Source of the DNA: Dacryopinax spathularia | Taxonomy: Eukaryota; Basidiomycota; Dacrymycetes; Dacrymycetales; Dacrymycetaceae | Assembly (NCBI GenBank): GCA_037974965.1 | Contig: JBBPFI010000008.1 | Location: 310,001 to 374,000, forward strand | Direction of reading: 5' to 3' | Length of the DNA stretch: 64,000 nucleotides | Shown here: positions 31,644-55,061 of the stretch, one piece after another | Layout of the letters: the number at the start of each line of letters is the position of its first letter | How positions within the stretch are numbered: the first letter of the stretch is position 1 | Position numbers and translations under genes: made by a program | Notes under the pieces: model-generated | The model's input: only the letters and a program-made list of their open reading frames with translations | The model's database searches: none | What the model was told of the DNA's origin: nothing

Positions 31644-32082
31644 GACGAATATATGCGTTACAGGACGTCCTGGTGGATGGATACGAACGCGCGTCTGCAG
31701 CTGCCCTCAAATTCTGAAAGGGCTGCATCCAGACTAGCCGGAGTAGCGGTGTTCCACCAAGCATCGCAAATGTGAGGGCGGAGCTCCGAATTTACTGTCA
31801 CAACACGGCCTGCCCACTCACTCGGACCTAGGCTACACCACACCGTTGCAGCACGCCGTCCTCCCTCACAAATCGTTTCAGCTCACGACCACACGGGGAG
31901 AAGTCCTGACCTCATCGATAGAGATTGGGTTTCAGGAACTTCTGCTTGACATTGAAGAACGAACCGCAACCCATTAGGGCAAGTGGTTGCTTGTGCCCTG
32001 CCTCGTAGATTTGAAACTCAGCAGGCCGTGGGAGCGCAGGGGTACACCCTGCACAGCTCACCCTCTACACGCCTAATGGATC

Positions 32083-33620: not shown

Positions 33621-33825
33621 GTGTTGAAGGTGGCCAGATTTGGGTCACGGTGTTCACTCTGCTGTAGGGGTCCATAGGAACGCCACAATGAGCGCGTGCT
33701 CACAGCCACAGGGTGAGCTGTTGTGCAGTAGTGTCTGTTTCAAGCAGCTCAGCTCTTTAGCTGTTTGGTTTTCAGGTTTTGGATGATTCATCTTCAATTG
33801 CCTCGGTTGCTCAGTCCTGCAATCC

Positions 33826-33912
33826 GCGAGTTTATGAGTCCTTCAGTTCTTCAGTTCTTCAGTTTTTCAGTCCTTCAGTTTTCCAGTTTTACAGTTTGTT
33901 AGTCTGTCAGTC
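33826..33912 (+). repeat. degenerate 8-bp tandem array
   Basis: About ten imperfect units of the form TTCAGTYC / TTCAGTTT. Unit length and the CAGTYC core are the same as in the minisatellite inside the 2.8-kb repeat, which suggests an old, eroded relative. Confidence 0.6.
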
Positions 33913-35057
33913 TGGTGGGATCCAAAGGCTTTTGGTGTAGCCTCGATTTGTGAAAAAGTTGAGCAAGCAGTCACCGCAAGTTCTTGGGGTGTATAGGAAG
34001 AGAAGTCAATCGCCGGGACGCGAAGATCTGCATGCTGAACGGAGCAAGTCGTCCGGATCCGTGAAGGCCAATGGCGCCGCAGTTGTCTATCACGCCCGGA
34101 GGAGATCGATATACAGAGGACTAAGGTTCTGGGAGGGAGCCCCACTCGTCCTCCACTTGGCCACACCTATACGAGAACAGCGGCCCAAGCGATAAAATCA
34201 GCAGGTTCCCAGGTTCAGGGAGGTGGCACCAGGAAGGGTGCGGAGGCAGATGTTCGGAGCTCCGCCTGGAGGGCGCTCACCGTGAACGGAGCTGGGTGGC
34301 AAACCCACCAAGCCTCCGGCCCGTCTTGGCAATACACAGGTTGTCCCACAACCAGGCTCCTCGCCTTCATAACGGTCCTGCTTTTAGTGATGACGCTTCT
34401 TCGATCCTCAGCAACAATGAAGGGCTGAACGGAGCTCCGCTTCTGGGCTGCCGTTGGTGCGGGAGTCTGGCGCATGGTAAGGCACCGAGCGGAGCTCCGG
34501 CCGTTCCAATCGACCCAATAGGTAATCCGCACCGAGCTCCGCGCGAAGCAAAGACATGGAGAACAGTCAAACCGGAGTTCCTTTCTGCATTCCGCCGTGA
34601 AACACGTCGTGCTTGCCGCCGAGACTGCCGCTGAGCACTCGCATCCCATTGGCAAGTCGGATGACAAATTTGGCCCTTGCAGGCAGGCATCGCATGCGCT
34701 GCAGGGGATTAAGCAGCGATTCTAGCTAGCACCCGCTTCGAATACACCCCTTCGTGGTAAGTGCACGCCGGCCACAAGCCTTCGAGCCGAATGCCCGAAC
34801 TCTCCATCGCTAGGTATTCAGGAGTCAGGGGTCATTATCCGTTACACATGTCGGTGGAAAGCCAGGCCTGGCCGGACGTCTCTATTTCCATGGGCACTTG
34901 AGAGCTCAGACTGATGTAAAATAAGTTGCTTTTCGGGCCCTTGGCCGCGTCGCGCGAGCAATGCGACTTGAACTCGGCTCTCTTCCTCTCACCCTCCGCA
35001 GGATCCGCTGGCCCAGATGGATACAAGGCATGAGGAGAGTATCCAGGAGTTCCTAGA

Positions 35058-36625
35058 ATGCATCGAATTGACGCGAGGCGCCCCAACGAGATGCCCACCA
35101 TGGATGGAGCGTATGGAGCTACGCCGCAGCCATTACGAGGTACGTATATGCTCTGGGACGATCAATCGAGGGTCATAACAAAGCAGACATTGGTCGACAC
35201 CATCGTCGAAGTCGCACCCCAATGCTGTGTTGACCTTCCTCACGGTTTCCTGTTCCCGTTTTCTGCAGCATATCGGGCGAAGCTTTGCACAGCCCGTGCT
35301 GAATCAAGGCGTGCCGGTTTGTCCGCTCCCGTTCTTAAAAAGACGGCCAGAGCAGATCACCCCAGCGTTGAACCACAATTCCCTTCGAATGAGACTCATA
35401 CTTCGAAAGATCCGAAGGAAGCTCAGGCAGCTTCAGATGGAGGGAGCGAGGAATCGGGCCTGGCAGTTACTGAACGTCTTGCCCCTTCGTTGGGGAAGCA
35501 CGGTGTCCCTGACGACGACACTGCCACGACTGAGCCCACGATTGACGCTGAAGAAGGACCCGAGCAATCCACAGAAGACGAGAAGGATCAAGCCAGCTGC
35601 CATACGAACCAGCCGGCGAACAGTTCAAAAGGCAGCACATCCGGCGAGGCCTCCCGATCTTCTAAAGTCGGAAATACTACGCGCTTTTGCGGAATGGAGA
35701 GCGATTCTTGCGAGGGCACGGAAGGAGACTCTCCAGGAGATCGTCACTCCTGTCCCCAGAATGAGGCCACATCCGCGGGCGCAGGGTCACCTGAGATTCC
35801 TGTCGAAATGATCGATCCGGTCCTGCGCGGTGCCCCTGATACTCTGCCTGCGTCTGATCCATACACCACACGTCGAACGCCTTTGCCGGATGATCTTGCC
35901 CTGCCAGAGGGTGTCGGTCCCGCGGGACCAGCCGAGATACAGGAGGTATGTTCAATCTTGTCCTCTCAATCCATCGTTTGAGAGGACTTTGTTTAGCTAC
36001 AGAATAACACGGCCGCCAGCTGCGTCACAACAGTGCAAGGAGAAACCCACGCATCGTCCCAGACAGCAGAAGGGTCAAGTTGCCCTGTACGTCCATTCAC
36101 TCTATTGGCCTTGTTCGTCGCCAACCGTTATGCTGATACCATTACTCCTCACCGCAGGAACCCCCCCCCGGCGTGGATCAACCACAGGTCCCTGCTCCTC
36201 AGGCTGACTTGCCTGCGAACGCTGTCGCCCAGCCAAGGGTAGGCCACCCCGTAGGGGAAGGAGATGTTCATCAATCCGATGATCAAGTGTCTTCTGCCAT
36301 GCCTTCTAAGCGGCCATTCGAAGGCGACGCCTCGCTTCCATCTTCCAAACGCCACAAGATTACATCTGATGCAACGGACCCGGCGGTGGGGAAGCGTCTC
36401 GGCAAAGGCTTAGTCGGCACGTGGCCATTCCCTCCTTCCCTTCGCTCGTTTTGCTCATGGCCATCAGATATTGGCGCAACGTTCAGTACGATCACCTCGG
36501 ATCTTGCCACAGCCGAAGGCTCTCTCATATCTGGTTGGAAAGTCCTCGGTGAGCTAGAGTCGGCCATGGCAAAGAAATTCGGTGGACGGCTGGGGGTCGC
36601 CTCTGGCAAAAGCTGCACGGAGTAA
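35058..36625 (+). CDS. hypothetical low-complexity protein (479 aa)
   Basis: Three exons, 35058-35945, 36003-36086, 36158-36625, join in frame to 1440 nt; introns of 57 and 71 nt have GT-AG ends. Function unknown. Residues 1-80 may be folded (MLWDDQSRVITKQTLVDTIV, then LPHGFLFPFSAAYRAKL). Residues ~90-400 are rich in Ser, Thr, Glu, Pro and Gly, so disordered. A short basic stretch (MPSKRPFEG, then SKRHKITSD) may be a nuclear signal. The last 80 residues look structured again (GTWPFPPSLRSFCSWPSDIG and ATAEGSLISGWKVLGELES). The start was taken as the first ATG of the open frame; an upstream exon cannot be excluded. Confidence 0.5.
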
Positions 36626-37277
36626 GGTATATAGTGTCCGGCCATTTTGTCCCTGTTTTCAGCCTGTGAGCTACTTTGTTCTTCTGCTGTTGTAGCTCAT
36701 CAGTAGGTGACCCTGTTTACCTATTCATTGTTTCACTAGCGAATAACATCGACGATCGAGCAGCAATCAAGGGACGTTCAACCGACCACCACATAAACCG
36801 AGAAGGAACCCCACTGATTGCCACGAATTAGCACTGCACAATTTGTGGGAGCTAGAAGATGAGTTTTTCCCACCAAGTCAAGGAAGTGGACGGGGCCTGC
36901 GTCATGTCTCAGTGAAGCAGTAGCTGTTGTAATATGCCGGACCGTCGACGAGCACGTCCACTAGGCAGACGCTGACGTCGTTAAGGCCCGCGCGGAGGTC
37001 CGCTTGCGTCTAAACAGGTTGCATACTAGGAATGAAAGCTCCGACGCGACGGGCGGCCTTTGTGTGATTGTGTGTGTTGCCTTGGTGATCGAGGGATATC
37101 ATGCAGGTATCGTCTTTGCTGCTCGGAATCGGAGCCCGGCGCGCAGTAGGGGTGTGAATGGATGTCCGAACGGGTCGTGAATGCGAACGCGCTCTTGATC
37201 GATCGATTCCTAGCTTCGGAGCTCTTGCAAGAAGTGGACACTCCCCTTTACACGCAAGCGGAGATCCGCTCGAAACA
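36626..37277. other. intergenic, with variant palindromes
   Basis: Holds CGGAGGTCCG near 36988 and CGGAGATCCG near 37259; no gene seen. Confidence 0.4.
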
Positions 37278-37873
37278 GAAGTTTTTAGTCCGATGCCATT
37301 GACAATGCGCGTTTATTCGTCGGATGCCACCGACTCCGCATATTTAGTCGGATGCCATCCGGCCAGGGTCTTTTGCAGCGTGCTTAAGTCTCCCAGACAT
37401 GAATATGGTGGCTTGGAGGGACGTTAAGTGTTGAACCTGTTGTAGAATATGTATATCAATATTTCTGCACTATTCTTCTTCCACCGTCAACAGGAGCTTT
37501 GGCCGCACTCATGTATAAGCATATATGCTTGGAAATGAAATGACAAATATGCTCTCCAAGAGCTTATCCCAGGTTGACTTTTTGACTTACTTACCAAGCA
37601 CAAATCACTCTACTTTCAGGCCCCTAAAACCTTGAAGTGCCTTAGCAGAGGAGCAGCCCATATTTGGAAACATATTTACGCCTTATTCACCTTGAGGCCA
37701 TGCTATACCACAGGTGGGGACACTTAACATCCCTACAACCCACCATATTCATGACTGCTGGAGTTAGGCGGCCTGCAAAAGACCCTAGCTGGACGGCATC
37801 CGACTAAATATGCGGAGTCGGTGGCATTCAACAAATCAGCGTGTATTGTTGATGGCATCCGACTGAAAACTTC
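37278..37873. mobile_element. MITE-like non-autonomous element with ~155-bp terminal inverted repeats
   Basis: The left arm (37278-37432) and right arm (37720-37873) are inverted copies, roughly 80-85% alike, around a ~290-bp centre. Both arms begin GAAGTTTT and contain two or three copies of GTCGGATGCCA/T. No ORF is present, so it would depend on a transposase elsewhere. GAAACA occurs directly left (37272-37277) and again at 37878-37883, four bases beyond the right arm; it may be a target duplication or chance. Superfamily not assigned. Confidence 0.65.
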
Positions 37874-38390
37874 ATTTGAAACATCAAAGGATGAGGCTCC
37901 ACAGCCACGGTTGAATGCTCTGTTTCTCCTTCCACACTATAATACATGACATTTGTCCCCATGTCAGAGTTGTCGTTGTCATGGTAGCAGCGACTCCATT
38001 GCTAGTTCCATGGTAGGAAACACATAGTGCCGGGCAGACTGCACCAAGTCCCATGCAGGCTCCAAGTGCTGCTAGTATGAGGTTACGGATGGGCCATAAC
38101 CCTGGGAACCTCCACCCTGCCGCACACCGCACCCCTCAAGCACCCGAAAAGCACCTGCCTCACCCTAGATGCACCCTGTAGTCACTCCAAACACAGTATT
38201 CACTCACCTGCCACCTTGTATTCACTCATCATGCACTCCCCACTCTCTGTGCATTCCTCTAGCATTCCCTGGACACCCGGGAATCACTCATACCTCTGCA
38301 CTCCCAATGCTCCCTGTGCGAGTGCAGCTCTGCTTGCTGTCAGGGTCCTCACCTTTGGCACCCCCTCCTTACTGCCTGCTCACCTTGCCA
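37874..38390. other. intergenic, C-rich, nothing recognised
   Basis: Pyrimidine-rich with many CACCC/CACTC words but no clear unit, ORF or transposon border. Confidence 0.4.
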
Positions 38391-38734
38391 GGGAAGAGAT
38401 ACTATTAGGTTAGACCCAGAGCATCAAGGGATAATGTCAATATGGCTTTTTGGTGGTGTCCCGTGCCTATTTCAGAGTTGAAAAGAATACTATAAAGCAG
38501 AGTCAAGTTGAAGAGGTAAAAGGAACTAGTAAGGGGCAAACAGAATTGATAATGAATGTCTACTACACATCCCGGCTTATATACAAGTCTATGTAATGGT
38601 TTTGGACCTTTACGTCCTCCTTTTTGTATCCAAAGCACAAGTTTTGGATCGCAGATCCAGTCCAGCAATCCCTCCCATGCACCCAGTCCCTGTGTTGAAG
38701 TTGCGAAAGTGCCAAAGTTCCAATAAGCAGCTCA
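38391..38734 (-). repeat. LTR of element 1, heavily CpG-depleted
   Basis: Read on the minus strand it begins TGAGCTGC at 38734 and follows the LTRs at 45202 and 54718 along its length. Many of the differences are CG in those copies against TG or CA here, the footprint of cytosine methylation and deamination or a RIP-like process. Confidence 0.85.
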
Positions 38735-38851
38735 TCCACGCCCCACCTTAGATCTTGACTGTCCCCAGTCAACTGAGTCGTGGAATGATATGCGGGCACA
38801 ACATGGAACAAAAGAGAGCATTGGAACAAGATGGGAAAAACAGAACAGGGA

Positions 38852-38977
<126 letters not shown>

Positions 38978-40242
38978 TGAATATTGGGCAGTGACCAAGA
39001 CATTGTTGGGATATATCCGGTACAAGTCTGATGGATTGGCGGCAGGCATATCCAATCATTATGGCAGCATTTGATCGGTTTTGCCATTTCGAATGTTGAC
39101 TTCTCTGAATTTCTGTCAGTCCCTGCCAGGGTCCTTGCCAAAGGTGAAGCACGTGTCAATGTCCGCATGCGGAACCAAAATTTCAACTCATCATGTATGT
39201 CTCTCATGTTGTCCATTTCATTGTCTCTCTCTTTTCTCCAGTCTTGTCACTATCGATATCGCCATCAACTCTTAATTCCTTTTCTTCAAATGTCTATGGC
39301 GCCTCGGATGCAGCCCAAAGAATGCCTTTGCCGGGCCGAAATGGAGCTTGCCGAGCTTTGCATCGCCCAGGACGAATGCAAGCAACGCGCTGCGGCGCGC
39401 AAGTCAACAACACCCGCCAGAACGACATCGAAGGCAGCGGAGGAGGAGGAGAAAGAGGAAGGAGAAGTAGGGGAGATTGAACCGGTGCGCCTGGTATTGT
39501 TTTTCGACTGAAATCTGTTGCTGACAACGTTATAGGAAGCCGACAGTGAGATGGAGGCAGCCGGTATCACTGCGCCCACCGATGATCAAGGCGAAATGGT
39601 CGCGCCGGCCAATGAGGCTGAAGAAGTGGCCAACATGGTCGTTGACGGTGCTGAGGAGGCCATCCCAACTGAAGAAGACATTGTGCCGGCTGCGGACAAC
39701 GTCGCGATCGCTCAGGATGTCCCGATAGAGGAAGACAATGTGCCCGCGCCTGCACCAAAGGTCGCGAAGACGGCCGCTGTGCCAAAGGTCGCCGAAAAGG
39801 CAAAGTCAACCTCCGTCCAGAGGTCAGCTACGCTGAAGCCCATCACGCCAAAGGAGAAGATGCCGGCACCGGTTGCTGAACCAGTCAAGAAGGTTGCAGC
39901 GAAGTCCATCGTTGCGCCCAAGAAGGTTGTTGCGGCTCTGGCCATTATCGACTATGTCGATGCGGAGGAGTCGTTTGAGGAGGCGCTGGAGTCAGAGGAG
40001 GAGGTGATTGAGTCGGAGGAGGAGATTACGGAGGTTGTCCCGGTCATTTGAAGCGTCCAGGAGGTCTCGATGGCCATCCCGGTGAGGCCGGAAGACCATT
40101 GGGTGTGGTTGGCGAAGGACGACAATGTTTGCACCTTTCGCGTAAGTTTCCTTTTTCTGTTTTGGTTTGCCCTGCGCTAATACGGGTTTGTAGCACAAAA
40201 TGATGGCTGCTCTGGCAGCCAAGAATGGCACGATCGCGGATG

Positions 40243-43200
40243 CGGTGTGTGATCCTTTCCTTCCCCAGGTGTGCAGGAGAGATCTTAGGTGCGATGGGCA
40301 GGTAGAAGACCGAGGGGAAATGGGACGACAAGATCAAAGTACCAAAACAATATTTCGTTTTGAGAAGGCGGTGCAAGATGTTTCAATGGGGCGAACAAGA
40401 CGGGGTTCACAATCCATAGTGGTCATTCGCATCTAGCTTCGTACCTACCGCTCCTGTATATGTAAGGCCTAGTGCAGGTACCAAATTTTACCTTCACTCC
40501 GGACGATACCAGAATCTCGCATGGAGATTTCAGTCTCCGCCTGGACCGGCTAACTGTTCCGAGATCTCGAGCCAAGCTGGCCAGCCCTAGATCCCGTTCT
40601 GAGATCCGGTCGCGACTACTTGTTCCGAGATTCTGCGCCCAGGGTCCATCGGCCACGAGTAACCACCTGTTGCCTCGTTCCCCGCTCAGGAGGAGAAAAC
40701 CCCTCACATAGTCCTAGGAACTTCAGACGTGGCCTTCCACGGCCATCCCCCCCCCCCCCCCCCCCCGGCTTTTCGTACTCCAGTATTTGTCTTGGTTACT
40801 CGGTTCGAGAAAGCAAATGAAGATGCTTCTGGATCGAATGGTTCCGGCCAAGTGGCGCCGGTATGCCCTTCGTCGTCTCGAACTTACAATGAACCGGCCG
40901 ACTCATTGCTCCAACCATCACTCTCGTCATGCCTACTCAAGGTCATCGCCGTTCACAATTCTGGAACCCGCCCCTGGATATCCGCCTCTCCATCCCGGAT
41001 GAGCCCTGGTCTCGCCCTTTGCAAGCTTGGGATGGATACCCTGCGAGATGGCGCAAGTTCGGTCCATCTGGGTGCATCCCACTGATTGCCTTCCTGGCTC
41101 TCTTGATGCAGTTCGTCTGACCACTTCTCCAGAGCGACCTTTGCCGGGAAGCGAATGAACACGTCGAGTGGTCCCCCACCAAGAGAGACACATTGGCCGG
41201 GTGGCTCGCCTTCGTCGCCAGTCGTCGACAAGCGGGGTGGTTCACGGATCACCAATTCGGCTGCTTTTCGTCCTTAGTCCAGACCGCCCCAAACAGAGTG
41301 TACCGCCGCGCCCTGCGCTACTTGGAAAAGTGGGGCCTTGTGGACAAGATGGGTACACCTCTCCCCATCTTTGCCAACTGCTCTTCTGAAGCCTCCGACC
41401 AGATTATTCCTTCTGATTTCGATCCGACCCGCCGCAACGTTGAAAACGGTTCTCCAATCGAGCTTCATAGCTGGTGGTATTCTCGGGGCAGGAACCTGCG
41501 GCAAGAAAGGGATCCGATGTTCCGTGACAAGACCACCCGGATAATGGTTGCGCAGCAGACGCTCTCTGGCGACTACACCAGGCGACTCTCCCTTGCCTAC
41601 CTCGAGCTCGTGCTTGGACGATTGTGCGGTGAAACTGTTCCGGGTCGTGCCACTAGACTCGCTGGCTTGGTGGTACGCCCATCCCTTTCCTTCCTCTCCC
41701 ACTTTCTCACGCCTTTCTTCTACACAGCGGACGTGCGTTACACATTATCGCTCTTCCTTTGTCCCGTTAGGCGACCTTGCCAACATCATTACCGCCGCGC
41801 TCTGCCTTGTCCTTGAGTGTCACTGGATGGCCTACAACGAGCTGAATCCCTTCCAGCTTTTTGGTTCCAATTTCCTTCTCCGTTTTTGACTTCCAGCCGG
41901 GAAACCAGAACAAGAATTCGCCCTGAGATTTGAGGAGCCGGTTGGCGCTGAGGAAAACCGCTCATACCCAGTTGACCGCGCGATCCGTCTCCTTGCTGGC
42001 TCCCCTTATCCATTGTCACCACGAAAACTGGTTAAATGGGCCAGCCGCATCGTGGACACCATCAACTCGCTTGCTGCTACCCTCGGACACCATCCTGATC
42101 AAGCCACCCCCCTCATCTACTCGATTCTGTATGTCTATGCCGACACCTTGCGTGGTATAGAGGTCGAGTGCGATGTCGTGTCCGACATGGATTACAGCAG
42201 GCTCGAGACGCTCCACGCCGAGTTCGGCCCCTGGCCTCCCGCCGTTTCTTACCAAAAGGATGAGATCCCTACCGACCTTGGGCTGTTCATGGCCTATGCC
42301 GCAGGGTTGGCCAATCACCTCCCGTCTCTCGATGGCGATGTTGCGACCTTGGGGGAAGCCCAAGAGTGGTCTTCCCAATTGTATCCTCTGGTACGTCATT
42401 CTCGCGTCAAGCTCTCCGTCCCGTTTCTCATTTCGAATCCTCCAGAGCGTTCCCCTACGCCGTTTCTTCGATACAAGAATCGTCTTTAGTCCCGGTTTTG
42501 GCGAGGCTGTTGGTCGCATTCTCGCCACTGCCATTAAACTCCGTAACCAATTCCGGATCCCTATTGCACTTCCTATCGAAACCCTTTTGCCTTCTTTCCT
42601 CTGCGTGCATGACCTGGCCGAATTCATCGAGTCCGGCGACAAAACCGACGGCGACATCTCCTCCTTGGGACACATTTCCAGCCCAGCACCTTCCCGCCAT
42701 ACCATTCTGAAGGGCGGACAGATTCTTGCATGCGATTCAATGCCTGCCGCTGCTTTCCACGAAGCTGTCTTCCCAGTGGAGACTACTCGGTACATCATGC
42801 GCGATGTCACCTCCGGCCGCGCTTCCCTACGCCCGTCCGGCTCCAAAGCCCCCGCAGAAGAAGAGGACAACTCTTCTCCTCCTTCCGGCTCGGAATTTGC
42901 CCCAGATTCTGGGGCCGAGACTCCCAATTTGGAAAACGACGTCATCGAGATTCTGACTCGAGATCTCAGATTGGGAATTCGGGCCGGACGATCGGGTCCA
43001 GCACCGCCACGCGGGATCAGAACCGCCGATCACATCCAGATGCGCGCCAGCACCCGTCACTCCGCCACTCTTCCCCAGATGCCATCTTCTTCTGCTCTCA
43101 GCCTCTACTACAAGATGCCCTCAAAACGCCCTGCGCCCTCCAATGCACTCAAGTGGGGCCCTGTCCTCCTGCTGCCCGACCTAAACGCTCACCCGCGCCC

Positions 43201-44919
43201 TCGCCTCGACGACCCCGTCCGCACCCAAGAGCTCCGCAACATGTTTGCCAACTTCCAAACGAAGAGCAAGGTCGTTGCTGGGATCGATCTGTTCGACTTG
43301 CTCCTCCCGTACGACCCTGTCGTTTTTGACATCCGCAGCAACAATGGGAAAGGACCCTCCTACTTGCAGGTGAACAAGTGGCAGTTCGTGCAGGTTATTG
43401 GGCATAAGTTGGCGACGCAGCGCCCCCTTCTGGTGCGCCTCCTATTTCCTCCTTTCTTGCATGGATCTTCCGAGCTGATTTCTCGATTCGATAGTTCGCT
43501 GGGGAGTTTTATGGTTGTGCTGGTGACCACCACGTCCCGAAGTCACAAAAGTACGGTTTGCTCTGGTTCTGCATCCATTTCGTCGGATACCCCTGCTTCA
43601 AATGCCAGTCTGGCACAGGGTGCTCCTTTTGGACCATCCGGTATTCTGACGGTGCGCCCTGCCTTTGTCTTACCGACATGCTCCCCTTGCTCATTCATAT
43701 CTTGCAGTTCCTTGTTGATTTGTCGACTTGCCCGACAAGCACGCGCCCCCTCGGTCCCAAGCGACATACGATGACGAGTTTGAAGACACCATGATGCGCT
43801 GGTTGTACCCGAAGCCTGAGCGCGCGAAGGTCCGAGGCAAGAAGTGGGACGTCCCAGTTGGGAACTACATTCCATTCAAAGCGCAGCCCAGTGTTGCTAG
43901 CAGCGAGGCCACTGCTAGCCCTGCGCCCGCCCGCGTAACCTCTCTCCCTTCCAAACCCAGTACGTATTACCCGCACGAGCTCTCGTTTCGAGATATGACC
44001 TCCTTTTCTCGATTCGGTTTTCCAGCCCGCGCATCCTCCCTCGCCTCCTCTCCTCTTCTCCAGACGCCTACGGCCAGGGCGTCCGCTACCCGCCTCGGGA
44101 CCGCGTCCCTGCTATCGAGACAGTGGGCGGAACGAAACACCCTTGCCCTCTCTCCCCTGTCCGGTCTACTACACAAGCACTAGTCCCCTCCGCCACACAG
44201 CGCATCAATTACAAGAAGCTTGTTGAAGTGGTCCGTGGTCTTCGCAAGTTGGCGGATATGCTGGAGCCAGGTGGAGATGTAATGATGGCAGAGCCCTCCC
44301 AGATGGACGGACTTCGTCGCGAAATTCAGAAGGAGCTCGTTCCTGCCTGGTCCTTCCTCCTCGCGCTATCTTCCCACCTCCGCGACCACCCTTCCTCCTA
44401 GTCCGTCAGTTTCTCCTTTTCTTCTACATAAGTGGTAGTAGCGTTCATCTGTATTCGGTCGGTAAAATGGGATTTTGTGTTTTTTGCCCACCTCGTCTTC
44501 GATTCGCGTTGAGATTTCGAATAGAGAATTTTGAATCAAGAAGAGAGATCTCTGTTCGAGAGTTCCCAGCAAGTGTCAACCAAAATGGTTGTTGTGGTTA
44601 ACTTGTTATAGCGTCGACCCGTGTCGAGGGTGTGTGCCAGCGAATATCGAGGCGCGGACGCGAATTCGACGTGTGACCCTTGTTTTCTTTCGTCCACCTT
44701 TCTTCCTCTGTGATCCCTACAAACCTTGATTCTGCTTCTATTCTCTTTTTTTGCTCGAAGCTCACACCTGTCTTCATCCATTCGTCTTCATCCATTCCAC
44801 GGTGTTCTATACTTTCGTTACTGTATCACGCTCCGAGATCTTGTCATCGGTTCTGGCATTCAATTCTCGAATTGAGACTTCTGGCCTGATTGTCATGGCG
44901 CTAAGGGCCCCTTCCCCTC
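40243..44919 (+). mobile_element. 4.68-kb insertion of unknown type inside the passenger gene
   Basis: Comparison with the intact passenger gene (element 2, near 53230-53300) shows that 40243-44919 is extra DNA: host sequence reads up to GATCGCGGATG on the left and resumes at GACAAAGTC on the right. CGG is present at both borders, compatible with a 3-bp target duplication. No terminal inverted or long terminal repeats were found. The insert contains a run of 18 or more C at about 40749 and one multi-exon gene (40929-44401). Its class is unknown. Confidence 0.6.
40929..44401 (+). pseudogene. unknown multi-exon gene inside the 4.68-kb insertion, probably broken
   Basis: Several long coding blocks are linked by introns of about 50-60 nt with GT-AG ends, for example about 41671-41771, 42390-42444 and 43431-43492. 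I do not recognise the protein. The N-terminus has DEPWSRPLQAWDGYPARWRK and a hydrophobic patch (CIPLIAFLALLMQ). Next come LAGWLAFVASRRQAGWFTDH and a Trp/Leu-rich central region (KWASRIVDTINSLAATLGHH, RRFFDTRIVFSPGFGEAVGR). A disordered Ser/Pro region follows, then a cysteine/histidine-rich segment (GCAGDHHVPKSQKYGLLWFC, then YPCFKCQSGTG), and the C-terminus has INYKKLVEVVRGLRKLADML. The frame appears broken in one or two places. It may be the defining gene of an unknown element, or a captured host gene. Confidence 0.5.
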
Positions 44920-45201
44920 GGACAAAGTCTGCATCTGTTACTTTGGTCCTGCAACGCAGGCGGCCTGGAAGAAGGCCTAGGTACCTTTTTTGGTCATTTC
45001 GATATCTTTTCGATCACTGACTTGCATTTATAGGGTGCTTCTGACTTCGTGGTCAGTGTATGCGGCCCTCCCATCGAGGAGGGGCAAGAGATTGCACCGA
45101 GCCCGGCACAGGTAAGCCTTTTTCGAACGTTTTTTGCAGGCATATGGCTAACTCATTGCTGTAGGTCATGGCAAAAGCGAAAGTGACGGCGCACAAACTG
45201 G

Positions 45202-45546
45202 TGAGCTGCTTACCGGAATTTCGGCCACTATCGCGACTTCGACATAGGGACCGGACGCACGGGCAGGAGCGCTGGGCTGGATCCGCGATCCGAAACCTGC
45301 GTTTCGGATATGAAAAGGGTGGCGGACGAGTCCGAACTCATTAGTTAGATTCGTATATAAGCAGAGATGTGTAGCAGACATCCGTTATCGATTCCGTTCT
45401 ACCCCTTTCTAGCTCTATCTATCACTTCGACTTGACCCCACGCCAGATCACTCTTTTCGACTCCGAAATATGTACGGGACACCACCGAAAAGCCATATCG
45501 ACGCTATCCCTTGATGCTTTGGGTCTAACCTAACAGTATCTATTCA
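45202..45546 (+). repeat. 5' LTR of element 2
   Basis: 345 bp, TGAGCTGC to TATTCA. It contains a TATATAAGC motif near 45354, a plausible promoter TATA box. Matches 54718-55061. Confidence 0.85.
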
Positions 45547-45777
45547 TTTGGAGGTCGATTTGGGATACCTTCGACTTGGCTTTCGACGTCCACTCACCGA
45601 TATAACGATACGAACGCTGTCAACCTGTCCACTCGTAGTGGAAAGCCGTACTCGACGGGCCCCTCTCGTCTACCGATTCGCGCTACCACTTCGAACCATA
45701 CCGTACGATCCCGCTCCGTCCCGGTCTCGTCCCGGATCATCGAAAAACTTTCTAACCGACACTCCGAAATATCCGAA

Positions 45778-48042
45778 ATGCCCACTGTAGACCCTGTTGT
45801 CTCAGCGCCACGCGGCAGCATGCCTCTCCGAACGGCTTGGCCGTACCTCGACAGTGTTGCACCCAAAACAGTGGTACGGTATTTCGAGGATGTGGAGCAG
45901 TGTGCCGAAAATGCTGGGCTACCCCCGAAAGACTGTATCAAATGGGCACTTCGGTACGCCCCCACCGATGTTGCCGAAACTTGGAAAACGTTCCCATCCG
46001 CAGAGGGCGAGGATTATCCGGCGTTCAAACGGGATGTCCTAGGACTCTACCCCGGCGCGGTCGAAGACGACTCCCTCTATACGCGAAGCAATCTCGAACG
46101 GGTCGTTAGTATGAGTGCCGGCATTCAAATGCTTAACCGTGCCCAGCTCGCGGAATACCGCCGTGTGTTCCTTCGTATTTCGACATGGCTCAGCAAGAAG
46201 AAGCGAATTTCGGACTACGAGAGAAACGCGCTGTTCATGCGGGGCTTTCATTACGAATTCCAGGACAAACTCCGGAACCGACTGCTCATTAAAAAGCCTG
46301 ACCAGCGTCCCAACGACCCATACGACATGGAGGACGTGATCGCGGCGGCTGAATTCATGTTAGCCGGCACATCTACAAGCGGGCCATATGTCCCCATCAC
46401 GACGGCCAGCTCGATACCTGCCGTACCGTCTCCGCCATCCGCTGGATATCAGTCCGGACCGGGCAATATCCCTCCGGTGAAGACCGAAACGGAAACCGGG
46501 CTCATGACAGCTATCTCGACACTCATGACAACGGTCGAAACGCTTCTGCGACGCGACATGGAACGCGGCGCGTTACCCCCGCAAGGAAACGGGAACTTTG
46601 GTCAAGGGTACCAAGGCCAGGCGCGGCGACCTGCGACAAATCCGAACTCATCTAACAACGGAGGGTGCTTGTGGTGCGGACAGTCCGGACACATGATGAG
46701 AGAGTGTAACGACCTCGAAGATCATCTTCGACGGGGCCTCGTGATCCGAAATGCTACTACGAACCGTCTCACGCTACCGAACGGCATGTTGTTGCCCCGT
46801 GTAATGGGTGCGAACATGAAAGAAAACGTTATTTCCTGGCATAGCCGCAATCAGAATCAGACGGTTGCAGACCTAAATGCCCGGGCAAACATTCCGAATC
46901 GTGCGAACGCCCCAGTAAACCTCGTCTCCGTTGTATCGGACGTTCCGCCCTTCACCATAGACGTACCCAATGATGCTTTGCCCTTTTCGGTTGCCGATGT
47001 CCACTTGGCCCCGGCCGCGGACGAAGACGATGTGAGAGATCTGGAACGAACACTAGCGGTGCTTCAGACACAGCTACACCGGGCCCGCAACCGGAGGCAA
47101 CAGGAAGGAAGGCCGCTCCCCATACGTCGAGATCGTCCGGCCGAACCAACGAGAGCTAAGGAGGTGCCGAACCGTCGCGTACGAGAAACAACACCGGAGG
47201 AAATTATCGAACGCTCGGTCGAGGAGCGGGAGATGGTCGATAAGCCAGTCGAAAACACCGAAATCAAGGAGCCGACTCGTACTCATCTCAGAGCCCCAGT
47301 AGAGGACGACAGTCGAGCGGAAAAAGTTATTTCGTCCATAATGGCTAGCGAGCTGACCGTGTCGGTCCGGGATATGCTCGCAATTTCTCCTCAAATCCGA
47401 AAATATTTTTGTCAACAAACCACCACGAAGCGCCTGCCGAAGCCCAACACAGTCTTATCGGCAGATCCTACGGCGCCCACGGAGGTCGTCTCGGAGGATA
47501 TTGAAAAACAGCTGCTGCCAGAGGCGCGAAGTGATATCTACGATTATGTGATGCATGTGTCCGGAAATCCGAAGGCACCCAAGGGAGCCATTGTGGCTCC
47601 ATCGATGGTCGAGCTTCGAACCATAAATGTGCTGGTTGGAGATGACGATGTAGCCGTCGCTGGTACGCTGGATTCCGGCGCATCGGTGGTTCTTATGAAC
47701 CACGACATCTGGAAGAAGTTGCACATCGTCTACGAACAGACTCCGGGACACATCCGTTCGGCCAACGGAGCGACTATGGCCACCGAAGGCCTTATCCGAA
47801 ATCTTCGTTTATCGGTCGGGCCGGTCACCGGTTTGTTTCTGGTTCACGTCATAAGGAATCTCCCGGTTCTACTGCTTTTGGGAAGGCCGTTCCTTACGCT
47901 ATTCAACGCCGAAATGAAGGACTTCGGTAATGGCGAATCGGAGCTGACCATAACATGCCCAAATACCGGGGTTACTGTTGTCCTCGCGACTCACGCAGCC
48001 GGAAATCATTCCGAACCGGCTGCGATTGAGGAGGATTTTTAG
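45778..48042 (+). CDS. Gag with zinc knuckle and retropepsin-like protease (754 aa), LTR element 2
   Basis: The N-terminal half has a Gag capsid-like helical region (KWALRYAPTDVAETWKTF and YERNALFMRGFHYEFQDKLR). A CCHC zinc knuckle follows (CLWCGQSGHMMREC), then a charged, Glu/Arg-rich linker, then an aspartic protease with the catalytic DSGA (GTLDSGASVVLMNH) and, downstream, LLLGRPFLTLF. This order is usual for Ty3-type elements, where Gag forms the particle and the protease cuts the polyprotein. The frame is open throughout. The matching fragment of element 1 lies inverted at 55062-56645. Confidence 0.8.
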   Translation: MPTVDPVVSAPRGSMPLRTAWPYLDSVAPKTVVRYFEDVEQCAENAGLPPKDCIKWALRYAPTDVAETWKTFPSAEGEDYPAFKRDVLGLYPGAVEDDSLYTRSNLERVVSMSAGIQMLNRAQLAEYRRVFLRISTWLSKKKRISDYERNALFMRGFHYEFQDKLRNRLLIKKPDQRPNDPYDMEDVIAAAEFMLAGTSTSGPYVPITTASSIPAVPSPPSAGYQSGPGNIPPVKTETETGLMTAISTLMTTVETLLRRDMERGALPPQGNGNFGQGYQGQARRPATNPNSSNNGGCLWCGQSGHMMRECNDLEDHLRRGLVIRNATTNRLTLPNGMLLPRVMGANMKENVISWHSRNQNQTVADLNARANIPNRANAPVNLVSVVSDVPPFTIDVPNDALPFSVADVHLAPAADEDDVRDLERTLAVLQTQLHRARNRRQQEGRPLPIRRDRPAEPTRAKEVPNRRVRETTPEEIIERSVEEREMVDKPVENTEIKEPTRTHLRAPVEDDSRAEKVISSIMASELTVSVRDMLAISPQIRKYFCQQTTTKRLPKPNTVLSADPTAPTEVVSEDIEKQLLPEARSDIYDYVMHVSGNPKAPKGAIVAPSMVELRTINVLVGDDDVAVAGTLDSGASVVLMNHDIWKKLHIVYEQTPGHIRSANGATMATEGLIRNLRLSVGPVTGLFLVHVIRNLPVLLLLGRPFLTLFNAEMKDFGNGESELTITCPNTGVTVVLATHAAGNHSEPAAIEEDF

Positions 48043-48080
48043 GAGTCAAGGACCCGGCAAACCTACGGCAAGACGACCAG

Positions 48081-51000
48081 ATGATATCGACATTAGCCCT
48101 TCTTATTCCACGAATAGACATTATCGATCGCGAAACCTTCTCTCAACATTATTACTTCGATACCATCCAACATGCGCTCGCGATCCGAAAATACAAGAAA
48201 GTCGACGAGCGCGTGAAGCCCGTTCCGGCACCACACCCGGAGCACCTAAAAATACGACGTCGTTTCCCTTCAAATCCTCTCGAGCACATGAAGGCTTTAC
48301 CGAAACATCCGCCCGAGTTTTCCCCGGGCTTTCGACTTACCCAGGAACGGTTCGATGCCTTGAACATCAACCGACATAACTTCCTTTGGCCGGAAGAGGA
48401 GAAACTGGTGGCGTGGATTTATCGTGAACACAAAAATGCTTTTTCTTGGACAGAGTCCGAAATTGGGCGTTTTCGTGATGACTACTTCGATCCAGTCGTT
48501 TTTCCTACAGTCGAACACACTCCATGGCAGGAGCGAAATATACCCATCCCTCCCGGTATCCTCGAGAGCGTCCTCGACATGCTTCGCGAGAAGGTTAAGG
48601 CCGGAACGTATGAGCCCTCCCAATCTGCGTACAGGTCGAAGTGGTTCGTTGTACCGAAAAAGAGTGGGGAGCACCGATTGGTTATCGATGCACAACCGCT
48701 CAATGGCGTCATGATCCGAAGCACGTCGGTCCCACCTATTATGGAACATCTCCTGGAAAGTTACGGCGGACGCGCCTGTTATGGACTCCTAGACTTCTAT
48801 CGCGGTTTTGAGCAACATTCGCTCGCCCCAGAATCGCGGGATCTGACGTCCTTCCAAACGCTCATCGGGCCTCTCCGCTATACTGTCGCCCCTATGGGAG
48901 CTCACAATATGCCTGGCATCATGCAGGATAATGTGAATTTCTTGTTTAGCGACGAGATTCCTCATATCACAACGCCCTTTATCGACGATCTAGGCATCAA
49001 AGGCCTACAACTTGTTACAAGACTAAAGGTGGGTACAAAACGATCTGCGAAAACAAGGGGATACACCGCTTTGTTTTCGAACACCTCACAAATGTTCACC
49101 GGATCATTACCTGAGCGGAAAATGCTGGAGCGACCTTTTCCAGGCCAAAGGCGGAGCTATGCTCACCCAAAATTATCCTTTTGGGCCATCGATGCTCATA
49201 CGAAGGGCGACATCCTGATCCAGCAAAGGTACAAAAGATAATCGAATGGAAACTACCTTGCAAAAACATTTCGGAGGTACGAGCCTTCTTGGGAACTGTT
49301 GGTATCATGCGAATTTTCATTCGTGATTTCGCCCGTATTGCTCGACCCCTGGAGAACCTCAAACGAAAGGATGTTGAGTTCCGTTTCGGCGATCGCGAAT
49401 GGAACACGGTACGCCAGCTCCAGGCAGCAGCCCTCGAAGCGGAACGCAACCACGTCTTGACCCCGATCGATTACAAAAGTGGACGCCGCGTCATCCTTGC
49501 TGTGGACTCTTCGAATATCGCGGTAGGTTTCGTACTATATCAAGAGGATGAAAAGGGGCGGCGGCGTCCATGTTGATTTGGCTCGGTCGCATGGAACGAC
49601 AGAGAATCGAAATACTCGCAGCCTAAGCTCGAGCTGTACGGGGTTTATCAGCCCCTCCGACATTACCGTATCTGGCTGGTCGGCTTGCCCGAATTCACGC
49701 TCGAAGTGGACGCGAAATATATCAAAGGAATGCTGAACAATCCCGACGCATGCCCAACTACGGTGCTTAACCGATGGGTGTCCTGGATTCACCTATTCCC
49801 ATTCAAACTCGTACACGTACCAGCTGACCGACATGTCGCTCCGGATGGTTTATCGCGCCGACCACCAGCCGATATTGCCGAAATTAAGGACCGACTCCCA
49901 GACGATTTTGAAGATGATACGCTTAACCTGTCTCAGGTGTTCACGTTAGAACTCGCGTCGCAGCCGCGAGTTCCGGTTCTTTTGGCCCAGGGGGGGGGGA
50001 TGATCCCGACGCAGAAGCGGAGATACCCCGTGACGCCAAGACCGCAAAGCAGGACGAGACGATCGAAAAGGTTATACGATACCTTCGGTCCTTCCGCCGG
50101 CCTCCACGTATGCTCGACAAGGAGTTCAAAGCGTTCTTACGGTATACCACGAAATTCTTCCTGCGAGGCGAAGACGATTTGTACAAGAGAGACAGCAACG
50201 GAAAGCACCGGCTTTACGTTTCATATCCAGATCGATTCGAGATATTAGAGGCAATGCATGACGACCTTGGTCACCGCAGGTTCAGGACGGTACACGCTCA
50301 CATCCGGCTCCGGTATTGGTGGCCCAGTCTTACACAAGACGTTAAGTGGTTTCTCAAGACGTGCGACCAATGCCAGGCGCAACAAATGAAGCATGTACAC
50401 ATTCCACCGGTTGCACAAATGCCGCAGAACCTCTTCTACAGAGCCCACTGCGACATGATGTTCATGCCAGTATCGCGAGGCAAGCAACGGGGTTATCGGT
50501 ACATATTTCAAGCTTGCTGCTCTCTTACACATTATCCGGAGTTCGCGATCTCGAAAACCGAAAATGCCGAAAATATCGCGGAGTTCCTCTATAGTTCCGT
50601 GCTATGCCGGTGGGGTGCTATTGCCAAAATCGTCAGCGACAATGGTACGCCTTGGGTTCGCGCGTTAGAACAGCTCGCGGAAAAGTATAACATAACGCAT
50701 ATCCGAATTTCGGGGTACAACTCGCGCGCAAATGGGACGGTCGAACAGAGTCATCGGAACGTTCGCAAATCTATCGTCAAGTTCTGCAAAGGGAATACAG
50801 CCGACTGGCCAGCTTCGGTACCAGCCGTATTCTGGGCGGAACGCATTTCGGTGCATACGGCAACCGGGATGAGTCCATATTACATGGCGCATGGCACTCA
50901 TCCTACGTTACCAATGGATATTGTTCAAGCAACCTGGTTGGTTCCACCTCCGGAGAAGATATTCAGCCGAGCAGAACTCATAGCCTACCGTGCAAGACAA

Positions 51001-51567
51001 TTGCTCAAACGCGAGATGGATTTGAATGAGATCCGGCGTCGAATCCTGCAGGCTCGGCAAGTATCGGCCGAGCGGTTTCGCAGAAAGTTCGAAAATATAA
51101 TATCGGACGAGACGTTTGAACCGGGCCGCCTGGTATTGATTCGAAACACTGCAAACGACGGACCGATGCAAGATAAAACCCTTCCTCGATATCTCGGTCC
51201 CTTCGTTGTTGTCAAACGTACACGGGGTGGAGCCTATGTGGTCGCAGACCTTGACGGCACCCCTTTTCGAAATTCCATCGCGGCCTTCAGGATTATTCCG
51301 TACTATGCTCGCTTGGATTTGAAGACGCACATCAACGCAATACTGCGTAAGCTTCGGGAAGCGCCATACGCGGTCGATGTGGACCCGCAGGCACGGCGGC
51401 CGAGAGAAGAATGGGAAGCCGCAGAAGACAACGAAGCAGAGAACGACGAAGAAGAAGAAGAAGGAGAAGAAGAAGAAGAAGAAGAAGAAGAAGAAGAAGA
51501 AGAAGAAGAAGAAGAAGAAGACGAGGACGAAGACGACGGAGAGGACGACGATGCGGCAGACATATGA
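48081..51567 (+). pseudogene. pol region of LTR element 2: reverse transcriptase, RNase H, integrase
   Basis: RT core at about 48.6-49.0 kb (YRSKWFVVPKKSG, LLDFYRGFEQH, catalytic FIDDLG). An RNase H-like part at about 49.4-49.9 kb includes AVDSSNIAVGFVLYQ and ends near PDGLSRRP. The integrase at about 50.1-51.4 kb has an HHCC zinc domain (HRRFRTVHAHI, then CDQCQAQQ), a DDE core (SDNGTPWV, then NGTVEQSHRN) and a C-terminal acidic tail. The domain order RT-RNase H-integrase identifies the Ty3 type. The region is a fossil, broken in about three or four places, mostly in its first half. Confidence 0.8.
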
Positions 51568-51820
51568 AAGCCGGAAAAATCCGAAATACCATTTCGAACC
51601 TAGACGACATAGACTTAGACGTCGCAAGCCTGCATACCAGACACCATAGGCCAAATATCCTAAAGTCCTTCGATCCGAAATTACCGAAATTCACGCGATT
51701 GGTTTTTCACACTGTTTCTTTCCACCGCACTATCTATCGTACAGCAAAAACTACCTGGAGCATTTCTAACTACCGCTCCCTCCATTTCGACCCGCTGCCG
51801 AAACCCACCCGGACTCCACC

Positions 51821-54233
51821 TTACTCCTCGTCGGACTTGACGCGCTCCATGTCGTCGTCCTTGGGGACAACACGGACGAGGCGCGACTCGTCGAACGACT
51901 TGCCGTCGCGCAGGATCGCGTAGACCGTGGCGTGGGTCTTCTTGTCCTCGAGCGCGTCCTGCAGGTTGCCGAGGGAGTGCGACATCATCGCGACAAGCGA
52001 GGCGGCCAGCTCGACCTCGTCGCGCAAGATGTCGACCGCTTTATCTATACCAAAGGTCAATCGAAATATACGAAATAAACAAAGTGAACTTACGAAGGGG
52101 GAGCCGGAGCGCAGCAGCGACGGGACAGTTTTCCGTCTTCGGGTTCGGCTCCGCGAGGATCGCGACCTTCGCCCGCTTGCTGGAGGGGCCGGGCGCCGCG
52201 TCGTCGACCTCGCCGATATCGCGTTTGACACCGACACGATGACGGCGGGCCGCTACAATCACAGATTAACGACATCCGAAATACACCGAAAAACCGAAAA
52301 CACTCACTGGCCTGGGCGAAGTCACATCCGCCGCGATCGCGATGCTTCAGGCACTGGTCGCAGATCCGCCCACGACGCAGAAGGAGATCGTCCGCCGTCG
52401 GATCGAAACGGTATCCGCCTGAGCAGGCTCGGCCCCGCTCAGAACACTGGTTGCACTAAAATCGCGTCAGTCCTCCCTATAACGTGAAGTAGGAAGGAAA
52501 ACACGTACCGGATCGTCGTTGGGAAGTCCGGGAGAGCGCTATCGGACCGAAGTTAGCTTGACATGCTCTCCTACATATCGCGAACACGTACCTCCTTCTT
52601 CTTCTCCTTTCCCTTCCCCTTCCCCTTCGCCTTCGGCTTCGGCTTCGCCTTGGCGGCAGTCGCGACCGACGGGAGCGACTCGACATCCTGCGTAGAGGAT
52701 CAGTACGTCTCGCGATGGTTGTTCGAAGGCACGCACCGACTCCGGCACAATCACGGCCAACTTGACCTTACGGCGGCGAGGGCCCTTTGCCGCGGACGAC
52801 TCCTTTTCCTATCGCACCGGTCAGAAGTATTCCGCGAACACTGCATAAAACAAACGTACCGTGTCCGACAGGACAACGACCACCTCTTCCCTCGTCCGCG
52901 GTTTCGCGACCTCCTTCTTCTCCTTCTTCACCTCCTTCGCCGGCTCCGGCATCTTCAAGACCGACCGCTTTGCGGTCTCGACCTTCTTCACGACGGGCGC
53001 CGGATCGTGCGCTGTCATTCTTGCCTTAGCCGCGACCTACAGCAATGTGTTAGCCTTCTGACCTGCCGAAAACACCGAAATGCCTACCTGTGCCGGGCTC
53101 GGCGCGATATCTTCACCCTCCTCGATGGGAGGGCCGCGTACACCAATCGCGAAGTCAGGAACCCCCTACAAAGTGCAAGTCAGTCATCGAAAAGAATATC
53201 GAAATGACCGAAAAACGTACCTTGGCCTTCTTCCAGGCCGCCTGCGTTGCAGGACCAAAATAACGGACGCGGACTTTGTCCACATCCGCGATCGTACCGT
53301 TCTTCGCTGCCAGAGCAGCTATCAAATGGCACTACAAATCCGTATCAGCCATAAACGAACCGAAAAGAAAAAGGAAAACGTACACGGACGGCGCGAACAT
53401 TATCGTCATTCGCCGCCCACACCGCTCTGTCTTCCGGCTTGGCCGGGATGGTCAGGACGACCTCCCGGACGCTTTGCACGACCGGGACGATCTCCGCGAT
53501 CTCTTCCTCCGACTCGATCGCCTCCTCCTCCGACTCCAGCGCCTCCTCGAACGACTCCTCCGCATCGACATAGTCGATAACGGCCGGAGCCGCCACGATC
53601 TTCTTTGGCGCGGCGACGGGCCTTGCCGCGATCTTTTTGGCCGGTTCGGCAACCGGTGCCGGCGTCTTCTCCTTCGTCGCGACAGCCTTCGGCGTAGCTG
53701 ACCTCCGGACGGAGGTCGACTTCGCCTTTTTGGCGGCCTTCGGCGTAGCGACCGTCTTCGTGACCTTCGGCGCAGGCGCGGGCGGTGCGACTTCCTCCAT
53801 CGGCTCGTCCTCAGCGATCGCGACGTTGTCTGCAGTCGGCACAACGTCTTCTTCAGCCGGGACAGCGCTGTCCACGACCATGTCGTCCGCCTCTTCAGCC
53901 TCAACGGCTGGCGCGACCGCTTCGCCTTGATCGTCGGCGGGCGCAGCAATATCGGCTGCCTCCGCTTCACTATCGGCCTGCTATAAAAATGTCAGCAGCA
54001 AGTTCTATCCGAAAAACAATACCGGGCGCACCTGTTCAACTTCCCCTACTTCTCCTTCCTCCTTCTCCTCCTCCTCCGCCGCCTTCGGAGTCGTCTCGGC
54101 GGGCGTCGTCGACTTGCGTGCCGCACGCTTGGCGCGTTCGTCCTGCTGGGTGTGAAGTCCAGCAAGCTCCATTTCGGCCTTGCGAAGCCGGTCTTCGGGC
54201 TGCATGCGGGGCGCCATAGACATTTGAAGTAAA
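51821..54233 (-). CDS. antisense passenger gene of LTR element 2, with a cysteine cluster
   Basis: A minus-strand, multi-exon gene lies between the integrase and the 3' LTR. Several introns of about 45-60 nt with GT-AG ends separate the coding blocks. In order: MSMAPRMQPEDRLRKAEMEL (probable short helix); an acidic block; a long Ala/Pro/Lys repeat-like middle; AVIDYVDAEESFEEALESEE; RYFGPATQAAWKKAK; PPIEEGEDIAPSPAQ; a Lys-rich linker; then CNQCSERGRACSGGYRFDP and CDQCLKHRDRGGCDFAQ, two CxxC-type clusters that could bind zinc; and a C-terminal helical part (DILRDEVELAASLVAMMSHS). The family is unknown. A second copy in the same relation to its LTR (39290-45201) shows that the gene travels with the element. 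Antisense extra ORFs are known in some plant Ty3 elements; whether this one is expressed is not known. Confidence 0.6.
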
Positions 54234-54702
54234 CTAAATTGAAAGTCGAGGTGTCGGTGGTGACAAAGGTGGAGAAAAGAGAGAGACAACGAAATGGGCG
54301 GCGTCAAAGACAAACATAATGAGTCGAAATTTTGGTTCCGCATGCGGATGCCGACACGTGCTTCTCTTTCGGCAAAGACCCTAGTGAGGACCAACAGAAA
54401 TTCGGACAAGTCGCCATTCGAAATGGCAAAACTGCTCAAACTCAGCTGTAATGGTTGGATAGGACTGCCGCCAATACGTCGCACCCGACTCCAGTACGAC
54501 CCAGCAGCATCTCGGTTGGTTCCAAACGTCCGCGATCATCTCTCTCTCTCTCTTTCTCTTTCTCTCTCTCTTTCTCTCCTTCTCTCTCTTCCTCTCGTCC
54601 CTTCCATCATTCTTGCCATTTTCTATTCACTCCTTTCCTTCCTTTCGTTTCCACCCCAACATGATGCCCTACAAGCCAGTTGACTGGGGACAGTCAAGAT
54701 CT

Positions 54703-54717
54703 AAGGTGGGGTGTGGA
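54703..54717 (+). promoter_or_regulatory. polypurine tract of LTR element 2
   Basis: AGGTGGGGTGTGGA directly precedes the 3' LTR, the usual place for the plus-strand primer in reverse transcription. The same tract, inverted, lies next to the LTR of element 1 (38735-38750). Confidence 0.7.
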
Positions 54718-55061
54718 TGAGCTGCTTATTGGAATTTCGGCCACTATCGCGACTTTGACATAGGGACCGGACACACAGGCAGGACTGCTGGGCTGGATCC
54801 GCGATCCGAAACCTGCGTTTCGGATACGAAAAGGGTGGCGGACGAGTCCGAACTCATTAGTTAGATTCGTATATAAGCAGAGATGTGTAGCAGACATTCG
54901 TTATCGATTCCGTTTGCCCCTTGTTTGCTCTATCTAACCCTCCGACTTGACCCCACGCCAGATCACTCTTTTCGACTCCGAAATACGTATGGGACACCAC
55001 CGAAAAGCCATATCGATGCTATCCCTTGATGCTTTGGGTCTAACCTAACAGTATCTATTCA
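54718..55061 (+). repeat. 3' LTR of element 2
   Basis: 344 bp, TGAGCTGC to TATTCA, with the same TATATAAGC motif as the 5' LTR. It is followed directly by the inverted gag fragment of element 1 rather than by unrelated host DNA. Confidence 0.85.

Follow-up and report, generated by a model that had tools for sequence, protein, structure and literature searches.

We describe a 64,000-nucleotide stretch of the Dacryopinax spathularia genome (contig JBBPFI010000008.1 of assembly GCA_037974965.1, positions 310,001 to 374,000; hereafter the window) that carries a decayed fragment of a Ty3/gypsy retrotransposon, consisting of one long terminal repeat (LTR) and the LTR-proximal accessory gene, X, of an element family that we call family A. 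The original prediction, made from the letters of the window, was of a mobile-element insertion of unknown class holding an unrecognised multi-exon gene. Its insertion and its gene are borne out, as the coding frame shifts at the predicted introns and a product of 1046 amino acids (aa) is intact in three of five full copies elsewhere in the genome. Its "unknown class" can now be replaced: the left end, the LTR, the target duplications and the full copies are those of a Ty3/gypsy LTR retrotransposon. We hold it highly probable that the three parts of this reading, namely the class assignment, the reality of gene X and the antisense accessory nature of X, are correct together.

How well defined is the insertion? 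Two related stretches lie in opposite orientation in the window, one continuous (53.0-54.6 kb, minus strand) and one interrupted (38.9-45.2 kb). Bases 53280 and 53281 are adjacent in the continuous copy, which confirms the uninterrupted copy of the flanking sequence that had been predicted, and local alignments between the two stretches stop at 40245 and resume at 44920. CGG occurs at both junctions, as foreseen, and because of it the borders are ambiguous by one to three bases. The borders first proposed, 40243 and 44919, hold on the right and are 3 bp early on the left, where alignment gives 40246. The sequence interrupted had been taken for host sequence; the interruption stands, and what is interrupted is a fragment of a second LTR retrotransposon, family B. 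Inverted or long terminal repeats had both been denied. No inverted repeat of at least 14 bases joins the two ends of the insertion, in keeping with that statement, and Pfam scans detected no transposase domain within it; since it has neither terminal inverted repeats nor a transposase domain, a cut-and-paste DNA transposon was rejected. The denial of LTRs holds for the window piece taken by itself, yet bases 40246-40708 are an LTR whose partner is missing from this insertion and present in five other elements. The fragment in the window has this single LTR, while two LTRs bound each of the five full copies.

We searched all of the genome (29.2 Mb in 24 contigs, designated C1, C3 and so on, with the window on C8) at the DNA level with the insertion as query and obtained 16 matches. 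Near-full copies lie at seven loci, namely the window, C1:2494103, C1:439713, C9:461008, C6:1417278, C6:321358 and C5:1029093, the last split by a deletion into two matches. Query bases 1-463 occur alone at six further loci, with one match reaching base 474, and a 156-bp relative (77%) at two more. The proposed search for copies with the same ends was therefore positive, in that other copies share the left end. The C1:2494103 copy has the flanks of the window copy (98.7-99.0% over window 36001-51021, part of a large duplication between C8 and C1) and therefore represents the same insertion event, copied by segmental duplication. Five full family A elements, 14.6-14.9 kb long, each close with a second copy of the 463-bp repeat. 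These repeats start with TG, end with CA and measure about 463 bp in all five. Borders read base by base show repeats of the form TGTGTGAT...CTCACA between identical 4-bp flanks in six of six cases: GCGT in C1, C5, C6 (1.4 Mb) and C9, ACGC in C6 (0.3 Mb), and GCGC at a solo LTR on C18. All six duplications, that of the solo LTR included, fit the target pattern RCGY. A family B pol gene received the C6 (0.3 Mb) element; the uninterrupted form of this gene lies in the window, where bases 49955-49958 correspond to the duplicated target.

Only 1-3 substitutions in about 462 positions separate the two repeats of one element (four of four elements compared, with C6 at 0.3 Mb left out), and these near-identical pairs are the LTRs of recently inserted elements. 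The window copy is about 11% diverged from all five full copies, which differ among themselves by 1.6-6.8%, and 200 of its 332 fixed differences are changes from C to T or G to A. Its gene X nevertheless keeps a low ratio of nonsynonymous to synonymous change (below). We read it as a member of an older lineage that was long active and that decayed after insertion.

The class assignment is carried by the coding capacity of the full copies. On the strand opposite gene X, the C1 copy has a gag frame of 878 aa and a pol frame of 1265 aa. Pfam places DUF4100 and an aspartyl protease (gag-asp_proteas) in the gag frame; the pol frame holds reverse transcriptase (RT; RVT_1), followed by RNase H and then by Integrase_H2C2. 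RVT_1 scored 29.0 bits against a cut-off of 29.6 in the C1 copy and exceeded the cut-off in a separate RVT_1 search; RNase H and H2C2 lie well above theirs. Integrase placed after RT is the Ty3/gypsy order, and protease, RT, RNase H and integrase follow one another in this way in the C1 copy. The literature search found no co-mention of DUF4100 with a retrotransposon. A full family A element reads LTR, gag, protease, RT, RNase H, integrase, Y (antisense), X (antisense), LTR. Directly after the gag-side LTR, in gag orientation, lies a putative primer site of the transfer RNA (tRNA) type, TTGGAGCCCAACGCGAGG; a 15-mer taken from it occurs at 10 places in the genome, of which nine have a gag match no more than about 0.5 kb away and the tenth (C13:38026) has one at about 7 kb. 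No tRNA genes were found in the window. The gag frame is open in four of five full copies, with one TAG in C5, and the RT region is free of stops in four of five.

Gene X is a real spliced gene of seven exons, the exon structure being predicted. In the five full copies the third-codon-position bias changes frame along X where GT..AG introns of 54-65 nucleotides are predicted. All six aligned copies retain the intron positions, which led us to reject a processed retrocopy. Joining the exons gives 1046 aa in C1, C6 (1.4 Mb) and C9 and 960 aa, in frame, in C5; when homologous exons are joined as they stand, the C6 (0.3 Mb) copy is frameshifted with 11 stops and the window copy is frameshifted with 14. 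Among the five full copies, X is thus intact in three, shortened in frame in one and frameshifted in one. The ratio of nonsynonymous to synonymous substitution rates (dN/dS) ranges over 0.12-0.22 when full copies are compared with each other (10 pairs) and over 0.19-0.23 when one partner is the window copy (five pairs), and polymorphic columns make up 0.108 of introns versus 0.079 of exons. Judged by these patterns, X is kept by purifying selection within family A. The profile and structure-database searches that had been proposed for the separate coding blocks were run on the 1046-aa product, with no Pfam match over cut-off (scan at E up to 1) and no PDB match. The Cys/His-rich segment of the original prediction reduces to one four-cysteine motif, which is conserved and would suit zinc binding.

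Y, the second antisense gene, lies between X and pol (about C1:444.5-447.3 kb) and shows the same kind of frame-switching signal. The long C-terminal frame of Y has matches in the five full copies only. In five of five full copies, X and Y are coding genes that run against gag-pol and lie between pol and the 3' LTR, which is the position of the genes called aORF-3R.

Where else do relatives of these genes occur? Distant homologues of X were detected at three loci outside family A, with about 22-43% identity in local matches. The protein encoded at C15:626.7-629.1 kb can be followed alongside X, beginning at exon 3 and reaching the C-terminus, through local matches that are 22-35% identical; their tblastn expect values (0.12, 2.5 and 0.049 in the 29-Mb search) are weak taken singly. 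The cysteine stretch reads RICVRYPNAACYKCHRSKGGC in the C15 protein versus RFCIRFVGYPCFKCQSGTGC in X. A third version of X, at C3:885-886.6 kb, has the cysteine stretch RLCVRFPNSACFKCHKGKGGC and matches X at E 3e-9 and the C15 protein at E 5e-46; because it matches both, the three sequences are tied together. The X-like gene on C15 has a homologue of Y as its neighbour (26% over 171 aa, E 1e-10, the database searched being very small); the pair, which spans 626.7-630 kb, keeps the order and orientation of X and Y in family A. The C15 protein also matches C3:127.2-128.6 kb on the plus strand (E 2e-13). A sister element (pol at C3:133.9-137.5 kb and gag at C3:137.5-139.8 kb, both on the minus strand, with 71% and 56% identity to family A) has its pol about 5 kb from this homologue, which lies beyond it on the strand opposite gag-pol; from position and strand we infer that the homologue belongs to that element. 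Degenerate scraps of X, 48-58% identical over 30-69 aa, occur on C10 and C2. The scraps lie in repeat arrays near contig ends (C10:1164-1180 kb and C2:34-50 kb), where their order and orientation are scrambled. Since the searches found only degenerate scraps and distant homologues outside family A, we rejected a recently moved ordinary host gene, an alternative that had been named in advance as refuting the prediction and that finds no support here. X, Y and the antisense frames of family B were also compared with one another, with a best E of 0.05 and nothing better than chance.

The genes of family A are bordered by a repeated 16-bp motif, CCTAGGAACTTC(A/T)GA(C/T), found at 15 of the 15 expected places (LTR/X, X/Y and Y/pol in five full copies); one site, in C9, has G in place of the A of GA. 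The core of the motif, CCTAGG, is palindromic. The window has the motif once, at LTR/X, and the insertion stops at the first base of what is the X/Y motif in full copies. The motif scan covered 248,009 bases, made up of the window and loci L017-L031, L034, L035 and L040-L047, with L032 and L033, the duplicate of the window insertion, left out; elsewhere in these bases there is no site with two or fewer mismatches and one with three. In gag orientation the LTR/X motif lies 3-5 bases upstream of the 3' LTR, and plus-strand DNA synthesis of LTR elements is primed just upstream of the 3' LTR. The motif may be a secondary plus-strand start or a strand-transfer site, a suggestion whose likelihood we put a little short of even. 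The purine run GAGGGGAAGGGG, just inside the right border on the gag strand, is a possible retained primer. Two other readings of the motif were dropped: that the near-repeats flanking X are the target duplication of an X insertion, given a third motif copy between Y and pol, and that the motif is a minus-strand primer site, given that gag-pol turned out to be antisense to X. Beyond the motif, the neighbourhoods of its copies at LTR/X (R1) and X/Y (R2) gave a local score of 51 versus a maximum of 45 in 200 shuffles, which is not used here.

Why would an element place genes with introns against the direction of gag-pol? The introns of antisense X and Y would stay unspliced in genomic RNA of gag-pol sense, as expected from the replication of LTR elements, and with this placement intron-containing genes could pass through reverse transcription unchanged. 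X and Y would be transcribed from the side of the 3' LTR and would encode putative nuclear or nucleic-acid-binding accessory proteins acting on element expression, replication or targeting, roles of the kind proposed for plant antisense accessory proteins. The fragment in the window could have arisen from a partial complementary DNA begun at the X/Y motif, extended through X to the end of the LTR and integrated as LTR plus X, free of gag-pol. Its junctions, CGG/LTR...X/(C)GG, would then be a 4-bp duplication of GCGG minus one base, leaving a 3-bp CGG remnant; the insertion would later have decayed and been copied once by segmental duplication. In its widest form this model makes family A modular, its spliced antisense genes being cassettes bounded by a motif at which plus strands are started a second time or strands are transferred, with genes gained, lost or freed together with one LTR. 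As a complete chain, we regard this modular model as unlikely.

Several observations weigh against the partial-cDNA origin or against the wider picture. A clean 4-bp duplication is absent at the window insertion (GCGG on the left, (C)GGAC on the right), and GCGG deviates from the RCGY of the other copies; the imperfect duplication and the odd target together leave room for a deletion after insertion. There is only one LTR-plus-X event among the genome matches, as the second copy has the same flanks. The boundary motif is not polypurine, and nine purine runs of at least 12 bases lie in the same C1 segment in addition to that at the breakpoint, which leaves position as the argument for a priming role. 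Family B has no second copy of its LTR-proximal sequence in the stretch from 51.4 to 54.7 kb, so the boundary arrangement is not general. Three to four stops interrupt the matched pol span in four of five full copies, C1 being the query and free of stops by construction. Family A's own X has no match at C3:127 kb, where only the C15 protein matched. Finally, no RT was seen near C15:627 kb or C3:885 kb, in one search that scored 37 of 84 candidates and an RVT_1 search that missed all family B pol genes; with these limits, each of the two loci could lie inside an element or outside one.

The main rival starts from the insertion of a complete family A element, flanked by a 4-bp duplication, from which a later deletion, ending in the right duplication, took Y, gag-pol and the other LTR. 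The left GCGG and the right remnant CGG resemble a trimmed 4-bp duplication, and end-joining could account for the single base that the two sides of the join have in common. However, two coincidences would be needed, with one end of the deletion at the X/Y motif and the other inside the 4-bp duplication, at a cost of zero host bases, and we consider this history somewhat unlikely. It is quite improbable that X and Y are ordinary host genes captured by family A, with the element copies as passengers. The X-Y pair at C15:626.7-630 kb, near which no RT was found, and the X homologue at C3:885 kb would suit such a capture, whereas purifying selection on X within family A, the X homologue antisense beyond the pol of the sister element, and the presence of only distant homologues and degenerate scraps outside the family argue against it. 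Could X belong to an independent element of a class not yet described, one that has an LTR-like end of 463 bp and next to which a retrotransposon later grew? The single LTR in the window and its distinct lineage, about 11% diverged from full copies, are what recommends the idea; it is largely refuted, with very little likelihood left to it, as the LTR and X are similarly diverged from full copies and the insertion shares its left end and the structure of its LTR with the retrotransposon.

Features of the insertion and its surroundings in the window (positions are those of the window)
Feature	Position	Strand	Remarks
Insertion (LTR and gene X, fragment of LTR retrotransposon family A)	40246..44919	+	4674 bp; from empty-site alignment and genome copies
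LTR, 463 bp (TGTGTGATCC...CCCCTCACA)	40246..40708	.	3' LTR relative to gag-pol, read on minus strand; second copy in 5/5 full elements
Boundary motif R1 (CCTAGGAACTTCAGAC) between LTR and X	40713..40728	+	Same motif at LTR/X, X/Y and Y/pol of full copies
Gene X, seven exons (predicted)	40929..44401	+	40929-41071, 41133-41672, 41728-42390, 42446-43432, 43495-43651, 43708-43959, 44026-44401; decayed in window copy
Exon 5 of X with CxxC / four-cysteine motif	43495..43651	+	Motif conserved in the distant homologues on C15 and at C3:885 kb
Right border	44919..44920	.	Base 44919 is first base of X/Y motif (R2) of full copies; host GGACAAAG next; CGG in common with left flank
Host of insertion, family B fragment	38393..45194	-	LTR 38393-38738 and part of antisense-gene region, without gag-pol; from window self-comparison and border reading
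Family B copy with gag-pol	45199..55061	+	gag-pol frames 45529-51567; antisense gene on minus strand, about 51.8-54.6 kb (extent by eye); holds empty site 53280/53281

Family B, which received the insertion, also has an antisense gene. A 211-aa frame of this gene has matches opposite gag in four further elements (C2, C4, C7 and C17) and beside a decayed one on C9; third-position bias gave no clear signal in it. Both families thus have antisense genes, as does, by inference, the sister element on C3. The family B integrase frame ends, at 51.4-51.6 kb, in a long Glu/Asp tract from a simple repeat.

Other features of the window touch these elements less directly. At least 22 kb (28500-36000 and 36001-51021) are about 98.7-100% identical to C1:2488000-2510482, reversed, and there are paired weaker matches between C8:387-413 kb and C1:2430-2456 kb; the identity between C8 and C1 suggests that a large segment was recently duplicated or that a haplotype was left uncollapsed. 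A 2.6-kb direct repeat (12728-15336 and 24697-27305, 99.5% identity), with tandem repeats at one end, is probably a pair of mobile elements. By eye only, the frame at 27478-28314 (minus strand) is helicase-like, with no Pfam hit at E 0.01. Transposase-like frames occupy 56756-58928, the second of which (57558-58928) matches DDE_1 (PF03184) with 22.2 bits against a cut-off of 22.0, and a Prp8 spliceosomal gene (PF10597, PF10598) lies at 2379-4094 and in neighbouring frames.

How does family A compare with known systems? Boty / BcGypsy1 of Botrytis cinerea and Sclerotinia sclerotiorum has an extra antisense gene, brtn, between pol and the 3' LTR (PMC7264820, PMC8365987). Family A is likewise a fungal LTR element with antisense coding in this position; it differs, by description and not by sequence, in having two antisense genes, a seven-exon X and a repeated boundary motif, as far as these sources describe Boty. 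The plant elements Grande, RIRE2, Retand and PvRetro13 are antisense aORF-3R elements (PMC11963269), and family A resembles them in orientation and differs in that their hosts are plants. Retand antisense proteins mostly carry TRP28 (PF04195); no such match was found in X (E up to 1) or in two Y frames (E up to 0.1). X has six introns, whereas the word "intron" is absent from the main texts of both sources on plant aORF-3R elements. Internal copies of plus-strand priming sites are described for Ty1, HIV-1, Athila4, Calypso and Sireviruses (PMC2829016). If it acts in priming, the LTR-proximal motif of family A, which recurs inside the element, would be comparable to the repeated priming motifs of Sireviruses, Ty1 and HIV-1; unlike the Sirevirus polypurine tract, an 8-bp purine octamer clustered near the LTR, the motif of family A is 16 bp long, non-polypurine and placed at gene boundaries kilobases apart (PMC2829016). 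Among the top-ranked matches listed by a literature search aimed at fungal, basidiomycete or spliced antisense genes of LTR elements, whose coverage excludes most subscription journals, no description of the arrangement seen in family A was found.

Backward accessory genes are already known in plants and Botrytis; the spliced, motif-bordered pair looks new. What appears new is the combination of two antisense genes, an X with six introns, measured selection, homologues at a sister element and at sites with no visible RT, and the boundary motif. The function of antisense accessory genes is stated to be unknown, and their origin mostly so, in the reviews consulted (PMC11963269 among them). X is large, contains introns, is under purifying selection and has relatives beside a sister element and at loci lacking a detected RT, which makes it a good case for studying the origin of such genes. 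Family A also bears on whether antisense placement lets an intron-containing gene travel in a retrotransposon, and the boundary motif offers a testable handle on how accessory modules may join or split from an element.

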